Assembly: GCF_039614715.1 (NCBI RefSeq)
Contig: NZ_CP154857.1
Coordinates: 558,001-622,000 of the forward strand
Direction: 5' to 3'
DNA length: 64,000 bases
DNA from: Microbacterium sp. AZCO
Lineage (GTDB): Bacteria > Actinomycetota > Actinomycetes > Actinomycetales > Microbacteriaceae
This document shows, piece after piece, positions 43,930-47,600 of this stretch; positions within the stretch are counted from its first letter, which is position 1; each line of letters starts with the position of its first letter. Under the pieces are notes generated by a model. That model saw only the letters and a list, made by a program, of their open reading frames with translations. It did not search any database and was not told where the DNA came from. The position numbers were made by a program, and so were the translations under genes.

Positions 43930-44298
43930 GTGAAGTACGTCATCATGTTCACCTCGACGCCCGAGCTCGACGCGGCAGTCCCGCCGGAACGCGCCCAGGA
44001 GGTCTACACCCGCGTCTGGGAGTGGTTCCAGCAGCACGACGCCAAGATCGCCGACGGCGGGGCCGAGCTCCAGCCCGTCACGACCGCGACGACGGTGACG
44101 CACGGCGGCGAAGGTCCCGTCGTCGCCGACGGCCCGTTCTCAGAGGCGAAGGAGGTCGTGGGCGGATTCAGCGTCCTCGATGTCGCGGACCTCGACGAGG
44201 CGATCGCGATCGTGCGCACCTGGCCCATGCTCGACCTCCCGGGCAACTCGGTCGAGATCCGCCCGATGGTCACCGACTACAGCCAGTTCGAGCAGTGA
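43930..44298 (+). CDS. YCII-related (DGPF domain) protein
   Basis: 122 aa ferredoxin-fold YCII/DGPF protein: KYVIMFTS start and the signature DGPFSEAKEVVGGF. Members of this class are regularly encoded next to ECF42 sigma factors and are under their control in Streptomyces; the chemistry is unknown. GTG start after AGGAAAGGA. The stop overlaps the sigma-factor start by four bases. Confidence 0.92.
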   Translation: MKYVIMFTSTPELDAAVPPERAQEVYTRVWEWFQQHDAKIADGGAELQPVTTATTVTHGGEGPVVADGPFSEAKEVVGGFSVLDVADLDEAIAIVRTWPMLDLPGNSVEIRPMVTDYSQFEQ

Positions 44299-45533
44299 CA
44301 ACCTGGGATGCCGCGTCCCCGGGCGACCCCGCCCGGGGCGCGGCATCCTCCGATCTCGCCCTCGCGCGGGTCGTCCGCGAGGAGTCGGGCCGCATCGTCG
44401 CTGCGCTCACGGCGTCGCTCGGCAACCTCGACCTCGCGGAGGAGTCGGTCGCCGAGGCCGTCGAGGAGGCGCTGCGGGAGTGGCGGGAGAGAGGCATCCC
44501 GCCCAATCCCGGCGCGTGGCTCACGCAGGCCGCCCGGCACAACGCCCTCGATCGGCTGCGTCGCGACAAGCGATACCGCGAGAAGATCGCGCTCCTCGCC
44601 GAGACGCCGGCCGCGTCGATGGATGCCGAGCCCGACGAGCGACTGCCCTTGCTGTTCGGCTGCTGCCACCCAGCGCTGTCGCCCGACGCGCAGCTCGCGC
44701 TGACCCTGCGGGCGGTGTGCGGCCTCACGACGGCGCAGATCGCGCGGGCGACGCTGTCGGCGCAGGCGTCGGTCAGTCAGCGGATCGTCCGGGCCAAGCG
44801 CAAGATCGGGGCCGCGGGCATCCTGATCCGCATCCCTTCGGGGGCCGACCGCGCGGAGCGGCTCGACGTGGTCCTGACCGTCGTGTCCGTCATGTACAGC
44901 GAGGCGCATCTCGTCGCCGGGGGCGACGCGTCGGCCGATCGCGACCTCGCCGACGACGCGCTCTGGCTCGCGGGCGTCGTCGCCACGGCGCTGCCGCGCG
45001 AGGCCGAGGCGCACGGGCTGCGGTCACTGTTGCTGTTCCACCGTGCGCGCGAGAACGCGCGGGCCGTCGACGGCGAGCTGGTGCTGCTGGGCGATCAGGA
45101 CAGGTCGAGATGGGATGCTGCGCTCCTGGCCGAGGCGCATCGCTCGCTGGAGCGCGCGGCTCGGCTCCGCCGCCCCGGGCGCTGGCAGCTGCACGCCGCG
45201 ATCGCGGCCTGCCATTCGGATGCGGTCACCTCCGCGGACACCGACTGGCTGCAGCTGCTGACGCTGTACGACATGCTGCTCGCGTACGACCGGTCGCCGC
45301 TCGTGCGGCTCAACCGCGCTGTCGCGCTCGCCGAGGTCGAGGGTCCGGCGCTCGCGCTCGCCGAGGTCGACGCCCTCGACCTGCCGGGCTACCACCTGTG
45401 GCACGCCGTGCGCGGACACCTGCTCCGCCGCCTCGGTCGAGACGGCGAGGCGACCGAAGCCGACCTCCGCGCGCTCGAGCTCACCGCGAACGAGGCCGAG
45501 CGCCGGCTCATCTCCGCGCGGCTGGCGCGCTGA
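44295..45533 (+). CDS. ECF42-group RNA polymerase sigma factor with C-terminal TPR-like extension
   Basis: 412 aa, about twice a normal ECF factor. Sigma2 (residues ~20-95: ALTASLGNLDLAEESVAEAV, NPGAWLTQAARHNALDRLRR), sigma4 (~130-180: LALTLRAVCGLTTAQIARATL, RIVRAKRKI), then about 230 residues of helical repeats (DUF6596/TPR-like) typical of ECF42, where the extension is needed for activity and replaces an anti-sigma factor. Residues 4-18 are encoded by a perfect-looking palindrome (44306-44348). No other start lies between the overlap GTG and the sigma2 domain. Confidence 0.9.
   Translation: MTTWDAASPGDPARGAASSDLALARVVREESGRIVAALTASLGNLDLAEESVAEAVEEALREWRERGIPPNPGAWLTQAARHNALDRLRRDKRYREKIALLAETPAASMDAEPDERLPLLFGCCHPALSPDAQLALTLRAVCGLTTAQIARATLSAQASVSQRIVRAKRKIGAAGILIRIPSGADRAERLDVVLTVVSVMYSEAHLVAGGDASADRDLADDALWLAGVVATALPREAEAHGLRSLLLFHRARENARAVDGELVLLGDQDRSRWDAALLAEAHRSLERAARLRRPGRWQLHAAIAACHSDAVTSADTDWLQLLTLYDMLLAYDRSPLVRLNRAVALAEVEGPALALAEVDALDLPGYHLWHAVRGHLLRRLGRDGEATEADLRALELTANEAERRLISARLAR
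44306..44348. repeat. 19-bp inverted repeat inside the ECF42 start region
   Basis: Arms 44306-44325 and 44330-44348 pair over 19 bp with a single bulged T (44316) and a four-base loop. It lies in codons 4-18 of the sigma-factor gene, just behind the yciI stop. Confidence 0.75.
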
Positions 45534-45543
45534 CGGGTCGAGG

Positions 45544-47457
45544 TCAGGCGCCGACCGGAGTGAGCGCGTGCGAGACGAGCCGCTCGAGCGTCGTCATGCC
45601 GTCGCGCGACAGGATCGACTCGAGGTGGCCCTGCACCGACGCGAAGCCCGGGCCGCGCAGTGCGTACACGTCCCCGGTCGCGGGGTCGGCCGAGACCTCG
45701 GCCTCGCCGACCTCGGTCGTGCCCGGCGCCACGCGCGCCGTGAAGGTGTTGTAGAAGCCGATGGATGCCGGCATCCCGAACAAGTCCACCGTCTTCTGCA
45801 GCCCCTGGTGGGGGCGGGCGAGCGGCGCGAGGTCGATGCCGAGCGAGTCGGCGAGGATCTGGTGGCTGAGGCACACCGTCAGGAGCGGCCTTCCCGACGC
45901 GCGGCGCCGCGCCACCACGTCGCGCATGCGCGTGATGCGGGCGCTGGACGGGTCGCGAGGGTCGCCCGGACCGGGGCCGCACACGACGAGCTCAGCGGCG
46001 TCGATCTGATCGTCGGTGACCCTGCTCCACGGCACGATCTCGACGTCGAGGCCGAGGTGGCGCAGCTGGTGCGCGAGCATCGTCGTGAAGCGGTCCTCGA
46101 CATCGACCACGATGGCGGAGCGTCCCGCGATGGGGCCCGAGCCGCCGGCATCCTGAGGGTTCAGCCAGAACGCCGCGAGGCGCGCGTTGCGCGACTCGAG
46201 CAGCGCCGCGATCGACGGGTCGTCCGCGAGGCGAACCGGCTCGACCGCGGGAGCGTCCTCATCGATCGCGGGAACCGGGGCGTCGCGGGGGATCGCGCCG
46301 ATGGCGCCGAGCACGCCCGCCGCCTTGCCGTGCGTCTCGCTGACCTCGCCGTAGGGGTCCGAATGGCGCACGAGCGTCGCGCCGACGGGCACGCGCAGCC
46401 GCCCGTCGACGAGATAGGCCGTGCGGATGAGGATCGGCGCGTCGAGGTCGTGCGTCGCCTCGCCGTCGGCGACCGCATCCGTCCGCGGAGTGAACAGGGC
46501 GGCGACGCCCGAGTAGTAGCCGCGCGCCGTCGCCTCGTGCCGGGTGATGACGGTGCACGCGTTCTGCATCGGCGACCCGGTCACCGTCGGGGCGAACATC
46601 GTCTCGCGCAGGATGTCGCGCGGGTCGAGCCTGCTGCGACCGCGCAGGACGTACTCGGTGTGCGTCAGGCGCGACATCTCCTTGAGGTGCGGACCCGTGA
46701 TGCGGCCGCCGTCGGAGCAGACGGCGCTCATCATCTTGAGCTCCTCGTCGACGACCATGAAGAGCTCCTCGGTCTCCTTCGTCGACTCGAGGAACTCGCT
46801 GAGGGTCTCGGGTGTCGCGCCGCCCGCGGGGTGGCGGAACGTGCCGGAGATCGGGTTCATCGTCACGACGCCGTCCTGCGCGCTGACATGCGCCTCGGGG
46901 CTCGCGCCGACCGCGATGTGCCCGGGCGTCACGATCGCGAAGGTCCAGTAGGCGCCGCGCTCGTACTCGAGGAGCGCCCGGAACCACGTGAGGGCGGCGG
47001 TGCGGGCATCCGCGTCGACCCCCGCCGTGAAGTCGCGGCGGATGACGAAGTTGGCGCCCTCGCCGCGCCCGATCTCGTCGGCGATCACGCGTCGGACGAT
47101 GTCGGCGTAGTCCTCGTCGGCGACGTCGAAGCCGGCATCCTGAAGCGCGATCGGGGCCGACGGCAGCGACGCGAGCGCTTCCTCCCGGGCGAAGGCGACG
47201 TGGTCCGAGACGACGATGCAGCGCAGTGGAGCGCGGTCGTCGTGGCACTCGAAGCCGCGCTCGACGACCTGCCGGAAGGGCACGAGCGCGAGGACTTCGC
47301 GCGGGCCCGAGGCATCCGCCAGCGGAATGTCGCCGAGGCGCTCGACGTCGACGACGTCGCCGGTGAGCAGTTCGACCGTCGCGCCGTCGCGCGCGATGAG
47401 CGCGAACGACTCGGCCGCCGCGAGCGCGTCGGGAAGAGAGGAGGGGCTCGGTGTCAT
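45544..47457 (-). CDS. trpE: Anthranilate synthase, fused TrpE-TrpG (PhzE-like architecture)
   Basis: 637 aa single-chain enzyme: chorismate-binding half (1-~420; NPISGTFRHP, STKETEELFMVVDEELKMM, SRLTHTEYVL, FAPTVTGSP, YYSGVAALF) and a glutamine amidotransferase half (~440-630; GPGPGDPRDP oxyanion loop, nucleophile Cys in TVCLSHQ, and VQGHLES for His/Glu). The same plan is found in PhzE, which makes ADIC for phenazines. No phz genes are near, and a tryptophan attenuator precedes the gene, so tryptophan synthesis is the likely role. The elbow is CLSHQ, not the CLGHQ of standard TrpG. Confidence 0.9.
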   Translation of the reverse strand: MTPSPSSLPDALAAAESFALIARDGATVELLTGDVVDVERLGDIPLADASGPREVLALVPFRQVVERGFECHDDRAPLRCIVVSDHVAFAREEALASLPSAPIALQDAGFDVADEDYADIVRRVIADEIGRGEGANFVIRRDFTAGVDADARTAALTWFRALLEYERGAYWTFAIVTPGHIAVGASPEAHVSAQDGVVTMNPISGTFRHPAGGATPETLSEFLESTKETEELFMVVDEELKMMSAVCSDGGRITGPHLKEMSRLTHTEYVLRGRSRLDPRDILRETMFAPTVTGSPMQNACTVITRHEATARGYYSGVAALFTPRTDAVADGEATHDLDAPILIRTAYLVDGRLRVPVGATLVRHSDPYGEVSETHGKAAGVLGAIGAIPRDAPVPAIDEDAPAVEPVRLADDPSIAALLESRNARLAAFWLNPQDAGGSGPIAGRSAIVVDVEDRFTTMLAHQLRHLGLDVEIVPWSRVTDDQIDAAELVVCGPGPGDPRDPSSARITRMRDVVARRRASGRPLLTVCLSHQILADSLGIDLAPLARPHQGLQKTVDLFGMPASIGFYNTFTARVAPGTTEVGEAEVSADPATGDVYALRGPGFASVQGHLESILSRDGMTTLERLVSHALTPVGA

Positions 47458-47490
47458 CGCCGGCCTTTCATCGGGTCAGGCGGTCGCTGC

Positions 47491-47518
47491 AAAAACAAAG
47501 ACCGCCCTCGGGCGGTCT
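47491..47518 (-). terminator. Attenuator terminator of the trp leader
   Basis: Minus strand: AGACCGCC/GGCGGTCT stem (47499-47507 with 47510-47518) followed by TTTGTTTTT. It ends 34 bases before the structural gene. Confidence 0.9.
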
Positions 47519-47542
47519 GTGATCTTCGGGGAACGCGAACAC

Positions 47543-47560
47543 ACCGCCGTCAGCGGGCGG
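47543..47560 (-). promoter_or_regulatory. Attenuator segments 1 and 2
   Basis: On the minus strand CCGCC (47556-47560, segment 1, right behind the Trp codons) pairs with GGCGG (47544-47548, segment 2). The same GGCGGT (47543-47548) can instead pair with ACCGCC of terminator arm 3 (47511-47516), forming the antiterminator. The alternatives are mutually exclusive, as in classical trp attenuation. Confidence 0.75.
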
Positions 47561-47588
47561 GCCACCAGACGGTGAGATTCGCGGACAT
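47550..47588 (-). CDS. trpL: Tryptophan leader peptide
   Basis: 12-residue ORF MSANLTVWWPAR with tandem Trp codons at positions 8-9, upstream of the anthranilate synthase and ahead of a hairpin terminator. Ribosome stalling at the Trp codons under Trp starvation would mask segment 1, allow 2:3 pairing and let transcription continue. The ATG follows its -10 box by six bases, so the leader message is itself leaderless. Confidence 0.88.
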   Translation of the reverse strand: MSANLTVWWPAR

Positions 47589-47594
47589 GCGGTC

Positions 47595-47600
47595 ACGATA
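47595..47600 (-). promoter_or_regulatory. -10 box TATCGT of the trp operon
   Basis: Minus-strand TATCGT six bases before the leader-peptide ATG; a good TANNNT match. No clear -35. Confidence 0.6.

Follow-up and report, generated by a model that had tools for sequence, protein, structure and literature searches.

The window, 64,000 nucleotides of Microbacterium sp. AZCO (contig NZ_CP154857.1, positions 558,001 to 622,000), carries on its minus strand a gene for a large fused enzyme preceded by a short Trp-rich leader. The features, in window coordinates, are as follows.

45544..47457, minus strand: gene for a 637-aa fused enzyme, a PhzE-like TrpEG and putative anthranilate synthase (Pfam, PDB match, tree)
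47588-47491, minus strand: complete ribosome-mediated Trp attenuator (letters read directly)
47595..47600, minus strand: TATCGT, a −10-like box beginning 12 nt 5′ of the leader ATG (letters read directly)
47550..47588, minus strand: leader ORF MSANLTVWWPAR plus stop (ATG 47588-47586, TGA 47552-47550)
47562-47567, minus strand: tandem Trp codons TGGTGG in the leader ORF (letters read directly)
47556..47560, minus strand: arm 1, CCGCC, within the leader ORF directly 3′ of the Trp codons (letters; arm 1:2 swap test)
47543..47548, minus strand: arm 2, GGCGGT, partner of arm 1 or arm 3 (letters; 2:3 pairing in the alignment)
47511..47518, minus strand: arm 3, AGACCGCC, including ACCGCC at 47516-47511 (letters, fold)
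47507-47510, minus strand: terminator loop CGAG (letters, fold)
47499..47506, minus strand: arm 4, GGCGGTCT, the 3′ arm of the terminator (letters, fold)
47491..47499, minus strand: T-rich terminator tail TTTGTTTTT (letters read directly)

Arm 2 is separated from the terminator hairpin by a spacer of 24 nt, and arm 3 is either the antiterminator partner of arm 2 or the 5′ arm of the terminator. An earlier note on this DNA had described the box, the 12-aa peptide with adjacent Trp codons, the competing CCGCC/GGCGG and GGCGGT/ACCGCC pairings and the terminator, all of which can be read directly in the sequence. It also placed a 637-aa TrpE-TrpG fusion 34 bases downstream; the fusion is there, and the distance from the end of TTTGTTTTT to the fusion ATG (47457) is 33 nt by our count. 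The position of TATCGT implies that the transcript would start at or next to the leader ATG. On the upstream side, the end of an LtrA-family gene (47609) lies some 20 nt 5′ of the leader ATG.

By analogy and from this anatomy, it is highly probable that the monocistronic, PhzE-like TrpEG fusion is regulated by a leaderless, ribosome-mediated Trp attenuator and that the cell has no other anthranilate synthase. RNA polymerase would start at or near the leader ATG, as the box suggests, and a ribosome would load on the 5′ end of the transcript and translate MSANLTVWWPAR. When charged tRNA-Trp is scarce, the ribosome would stall on UGGUGG and cover arm 1, arm 2 would pair with arm 3, and transcription would continue. 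When Trp is plentiful, the ribosome would reach the UGA and cover arm 2, and arms 3 and 4 would form the terminator. With no translation at all, arms 1 and 2 would pair and termination would follow.

The leader is a real, conserved Trp attenuator, beyond what chance would produce. We assembled 110 homologous loci (the best 80 of 580 confirmed loci plus 30 from a family sample of 249 genomes); two of these came without upstream sequence, leaving 108 to score, a set that includes the window's own copy and may count one species twice (L080/L153 and L066/L160 encode identical proteins). A micro-ORF of 6-25 aa with WW, and with TANNNT 12-14 nt 5′ of its start, was found in 104/108 loci vs. 2/3,586 control stretches drawn from those loci. 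The start codons of these 104 leaders are ATG in 93 and GTG in 11. TANNNT stands 12-14 nt ahead of 49/7,684 other ATGs (0.6%; 77 loci), and an SD-like 4-mer occurs near the start of only 2/104 leaders. Because of this box placement and missing SD, the leader mRNA is very likely leaderless. In 98/104 leaders we found a stem of 6 bp or more with three or more T in nine after it; 9 of these 98 terminators have only 3 T in 9, and 6/104 leaders show no terminator by this rule. Homologous leaders therefore keep both the Trp codons (104/108 loci) and the terminator (98/104 leaders), the two features whose absence from relatives the earlier note had named as counting against its reading.

The loci outside the 104 are L080, L113, L121 and L125. 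L125 does have a WW leader, located farther upstream. L113 (genome G221, which is without TrpE) retains the attenuator with a single Trp codon (VRTSIRSPRWPAS). No WW leader was found in the upstream regions of L121 and L080. In L121, from a 1.4-Mb genome (G027) without canonical TrpE, a TAGCAT box starts 13 nt 5′ of the likely gene ATG; given this box and the missing WW leader, the attenuator seems to have been lost and the gene itself to be leaderless.

The closeness of the LtrA-family gene allows another reading, in which the hairpin is just the terminator of that upstream gene and the WW ORF a coincidence. However, ltrA adjoins the leader in only 7/77 leader-bearing loci among the best 80 homologous loci, so that the leader element travels with the enzyme gene, and the low rate of such leaders in the control stretches speaks against coincidence as well. 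We regard this explanation as extremely unlikely.

The folded leader (105 nt) reached −47.4 kcal/mol vs. a shuffle mean of −36.4 kcal/mol (z = −3.4) and was better than 200/200 dinucleotide shuffles, a favourable outcome for the folding check first proposed for this leader; no Rfam family reached its gathering score within the window. In swap tests of the arms, 0/2000 permutations were as good as the native combination for arms 1:2 (67 distinct pairs). The native 3:4 combination also beat all 2000 (34 pairs), a result with some circularity, since complementarity guided the choice of arms, and 111/2000 permutations were as good or better for arms 2:3 (71 pairs), a weak result. Across 49 aligned leaders, 2:3 pairing is possible in 96.9% of 291 cells, a figure that 500/500 shuffles also reach, and sliding one arm by +3 gives 75.3%. 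None of the six 2:3 pairs changed on both sides in these 49 leaders, because the core arms are nearly invariant, and RNAalifold found changes on both sides in 3/16 pairs, all in the terminator. The covariation that had been suggested as a check is thus present in the terminator and missing from 2:3. Altered forms of arm 1 (CCCGCC, CTCACCGC, CCCACCG) still match arm 2 in a shifted register when the listing is compared by eye, and the peptide endings WWPAS and WWPAF are common because RNA arm 1 dictates them.

RNA extending to nt 82, with nt 1-36 masked, folds as the 2:3 antiterminator (−15.4 kcal/mol). In the full-length RNA, the terminator remains the most stable structure even when the Trp codons are masked (−25.5 kcal/mol) and is preferred in 4/4 cases computed. 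Since the complete RNA prefers the terminator and 2:3 forms only while the transcript is still incomplete, the switch must be a kinetic one.

We built a covariance model, R1, from the 49 leaders (the window is one of these 49 training rows) and scanned the 4.23-Mb genome with it, scoring 150 of 8,891 first-look candidates. The window scored 70.6 bits and the next genomic place 22.4 bits. That second match (L175) proved on reading to be a plain hairpin, and the third (22.2 bits) falls at the same place as the first, in antisense. The genome's own amidotransferase region, L094, contains a weak match (17.1 bits, E 0.028). At E up to 0.1, R1 found nothing in the genome's own trp-operon region (L092) or trpD region (L093), nor in the trpE loci L126, L128, L129 and L132; a direct scan of L092, L126, L128, L129 and L132 likewise found no WW micro-ORF with a box. 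Among the candidates scored, we found no leader of this model elsewhere in the genome, and because both searches of the trp-operon region came back empty, leader control seems confined to the entry enzyme.

In the fused enzyme, Pfam places Chorismate_bind at residues 114-378 and GATase at residues 450-627. The best PDB match is 3r74 (513 bits over residues 16-632; next structure, 63 bits), which we take to be Burkholderia PhzE. The domains and the structural match agree with the PhzE-like fused architecture proposed earlier, and a PhzE-like fusion of TrpE and TrpG of about 640 aa is what S. venezuelae-type TrpEG looks like. The fusion reached no NCBIfam anthranilate-synthase cut-off among the 25 of 34 families examined; for TIGR01815 (TrpE-clade3), which has the same domain order, it scored 126.2 against a cut-off of 739.15, far below it. 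No phz genes were seen beside it (neighbours judged by eye, and two by Pfam: LtrA-family and YCII). From 43930 to 45533, a YCII-domain gene and then another gene run convergent with the fusion; the second may encode a sigma-factor-type protein.

Passages of PMC5906492 report residues that differ between PhzE and anthranilate synthase (Ser217/Ser368/Thr369 in PhzE). With an offset of 2 onto 3r74 (our own mapping), the window fusion has the triplet S/A/T, which is identical in nine homologues without a leader (L134-L142), so the active site is no proof of anthranilate release. Ala at the PhzE Ser368 position was tried as a marker and rejected: 109/111 homologues have it, but so do the nine leaderless ones, which are additional to these 111. 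Ser occurs at that position in L080 and L130, both without a WW leader. The amidotransferase elbow CLSHQ, which had been pointed out in the fusion and is indeed present, was likewise rejected as a marker, as it occurs in 105/111 homologues scored, including the paralogue L130 beside secondary-metabolism-type genes.

No canonical TrpE was found in this complete genome, whereas trpA, trpB, trpC and trpD are all present above cut-off, and for this reason we read the fusion as the probable source of anthranilate. The one-contig genome has three chorismate-binding proteins: the fusion, a PabB-like protein (L001) and an isochorismate synthase (245.1 bits; cut-off 224.75). The earlier suggestion that the fusion serves tryptophan synthesis rather than phenazines is strengthened by this search for a separate trpE. 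A competing account is that L001, together with a lone TrpG/PabA-type amidotransferase that the genome also encodes (185.8 bits), makes anthranilate, and that the fusion has an accessory role under Trp control. L001 falls 7.5 bits short of the pabB cut-off (320.9 vs. 328.4) and scores 288.6 bits vs. TrpE, so that a side activity is conceivable. However, pabB is its best family and the TrpE cut-off lies at 517.7, PABA synthesis would need that same protein, and the sole Trp leader found in the genome precedes the fusion. We judge it very unlikely that L001 has this role.

The place where trpE would be expected can be examined directly. At L092:8400-8403, the end of hisI overlaps the start of a membrane-protein-like gene by ATGA. 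In 4/4 TrpE-bearing genomes that were read, one of them the congener G335, trpE follows hisI (his genes named by eye), and in three of the four (L126, L128, L132) a membrane-protein-like gene comes after trpE, these genes again named by eye. The trpE genes themselves were named by models, that of G335 scoring below the cut-offs. Judged by this gene order, the trpE slot is empty in the window genome, and the ATGA overlap is the apparent clean scar of the missing gene.

Presence of the fusion and absence of TrpE extend well beyond this genome. We took 149 genomes as Microbacterium because the nearest named homologous loci are Microbacterium. The fusion was found at E up to 1e-60 in 147/149, and the two exceptions (G290 and G348) have completeness values of 88% and 90% and are split into ~650 and ~480 contigs. 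The TrpE model TIGR00564 matched at E below 1e-100, a threshold of our own, in 1/149 (G335), and its curated cut-off was reached by 0/149. G335 carries TrpE as well as the fusion, and its fusion keeps the leader. In the family sample of 249 genomes, 31 have the fusion (E below 1e-100), of which 14, spanning five genera, are without TrpE (counted by hand). Of the 218 without the fusion, 16 are also without TrpE, several of them incomplete; TrpE loss is therefore not always compensated by the fusion. The association between fusion and TrpE absence gives a Fisher p of 4e-7, a value that ignores kinship. Within genus g49, one member has the fusion without TrpE and three others TrpE without the fusion. 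Eight genomes of g21 and g74, 97-100% complete, are without canonical TrpE and without the fusion; in one of these, G234, a frame of 899 codons gives a distant match (34% identity over residues 111-559) and is a candidate for a further TrpE-TrpG fusion.

Since leader-bearing fusions occur both with and without TrpE, the simplest order of events would put the attenuated fusion first and several losses of TrpE after it. We think it probable that the PhzE-like fusion with its leaderless Trp attenuator took over from canonical TrpE as the one anthranilate synthase across almost all of the genus Microbacterium, and did so independently in several other lineages of Microbacteriaceae, with trpE cut cleanly from the row of his and trp genes. 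In this way a gene of a main pathway would have moved from an operon to a single, attenuated, outlying locus.

We also placed the fusion in a quick tree of 81 rows chosen from 141. A branch with SH-aLRT 99 has 67 leader-bearing rows on one side, joined by L113 and L121 (without WW), and 12 rows (11 distinct) without a leader on the other. The window fusion groups with streptomycete-type leader-bearing fusions, the S. venezuelae protein itself being outside the tree. L130 sits on a long branch and its exact place is unsure. At L130:85-15700, the congener G342 has this second, diverged PhzE-like fusion with no WW leader before it, next to a class-II DAHP synthase, an AMP-binding/PCP/reductase protein, a P450 and an O-methyltransferase, surroundings that are likely a secondary-metabolite cluster. 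By eye, L134-L142 also sit in apparent secondary-metabolism clusters, and in the one case tested by model, PhzF lies beside L137 (L167).

These relatives bear on a further alternative, that the window fusion is a true PhzE, an ADIC synthase serving phenazines or some other secondary product, and that Trp control does no more than spare chorismate. Its closest solved structure is PhzE, its S/A/T triplet is that of the nine leaderless homologues in their apparent clusters, and it reached no anthranilate-synthase cut-off in the NCBIfam families examined. Yet an ADIC synthase would leave trpABCD with no anthranilate source in nearly the whole genus, no phz genes were seen among its neighbours (by eye, and two by Pfam), and the leaderless homologues lie on the opposite side of the tree. 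On balance we find the ADIC explanation highly improbable, and an attenuated anthranilate synthase remains our reading of the locus. Among the rows tested, the Trp leader and tree position agree in separating two kinds of fusion; the active-site residues do not.

In the literature search, which lay mostly outside subscription papers, none of the titles listed dealt with the loss of TrpE or with Trp attenuation in Microbacterium; Korolev et al. 2015, cited in a passage of PMC4833913 for Trp attenuators in Actinobacteria, may cover this. Seliverstov et al. 2005 (PMC1262725) predicted Trp attenuators before the trp operons of Corynebacterium and Streptomyces; as its text passages describe them, these share with the window leader the repeated UGG codons, a GC-rich terminator and a triple of complementary arms. 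The genomes of that study included Leifsonia, for which the text passages give no attenuator.

The switch is of a known type, ordinary for Actinobacteria, with counterparts in S. venezuelae and S. lividans; the exchange of enzymes is out of the ordinary. In S. venezuelae, a Trp attenuator precedes the anthranilate synthase gene (Lin, Paradkar and Vining 1998, as cited in passages of PMC4833913 and PMC1262725), and the fused enzyme, PhzE-like in sequence as in the window, is an anthranilate synthase and not an ADIC synthase (a 2008 paper, as cited in a passage of PMC3111181). The window differs from this case in that no anthranilate synthase besides the fusion was found in its genome. The leaderless layout had been called unusual for an attenuator. 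This is not borne out, and leaderless attenuators are normal in Actinobacteria: the layout is common to 104/108 relatives, and passages of PMC8079986 describe trpL1, trpL2, leuL1, leuL2, thrL and metL of S. lividans as leaderless too. There, trpL1 (before SLIV_27120) resembles the window leader, with a leaderless, Trp-rich leader (MFAHSTRNWWWTAHPAAH), a monocistronic trpE, hairpins and a U-enriched stretch, although it has three Trp codons in 18 aa and the window leader two in 12 aa. Streptomycete-type leaders from the leader-bearing side of the tree match the published trpL1 in up to 17/18 residues, and those of L147, L152 and L156, with 17/18, precede fusions of the window's clade; we infer that SLIV_27120 is itself a fusion.

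PhzE is the other system to which the window fusion must be compared. Domain order and length are alike, as the match to 3r74 indicates, but the window fusion has no phz neighbours that we saw, has a Trp leader, and lies on the opposite side of the tree from its leaderless homologues, 3r74 itself being outside the tree. The gene is close enough to phenazine phzE to be misidentified as such; in a screen with phzE primers, described in a passage of PMC3111181, the authors verified that these primers would miss the S. venezuelae enzyme. That TrpE is lost almost entirely from the genus and replaced by the fusion looks little noticed in print, and it offers a natural case of a phenazine-type fused enzyme carrying primary metabolism.
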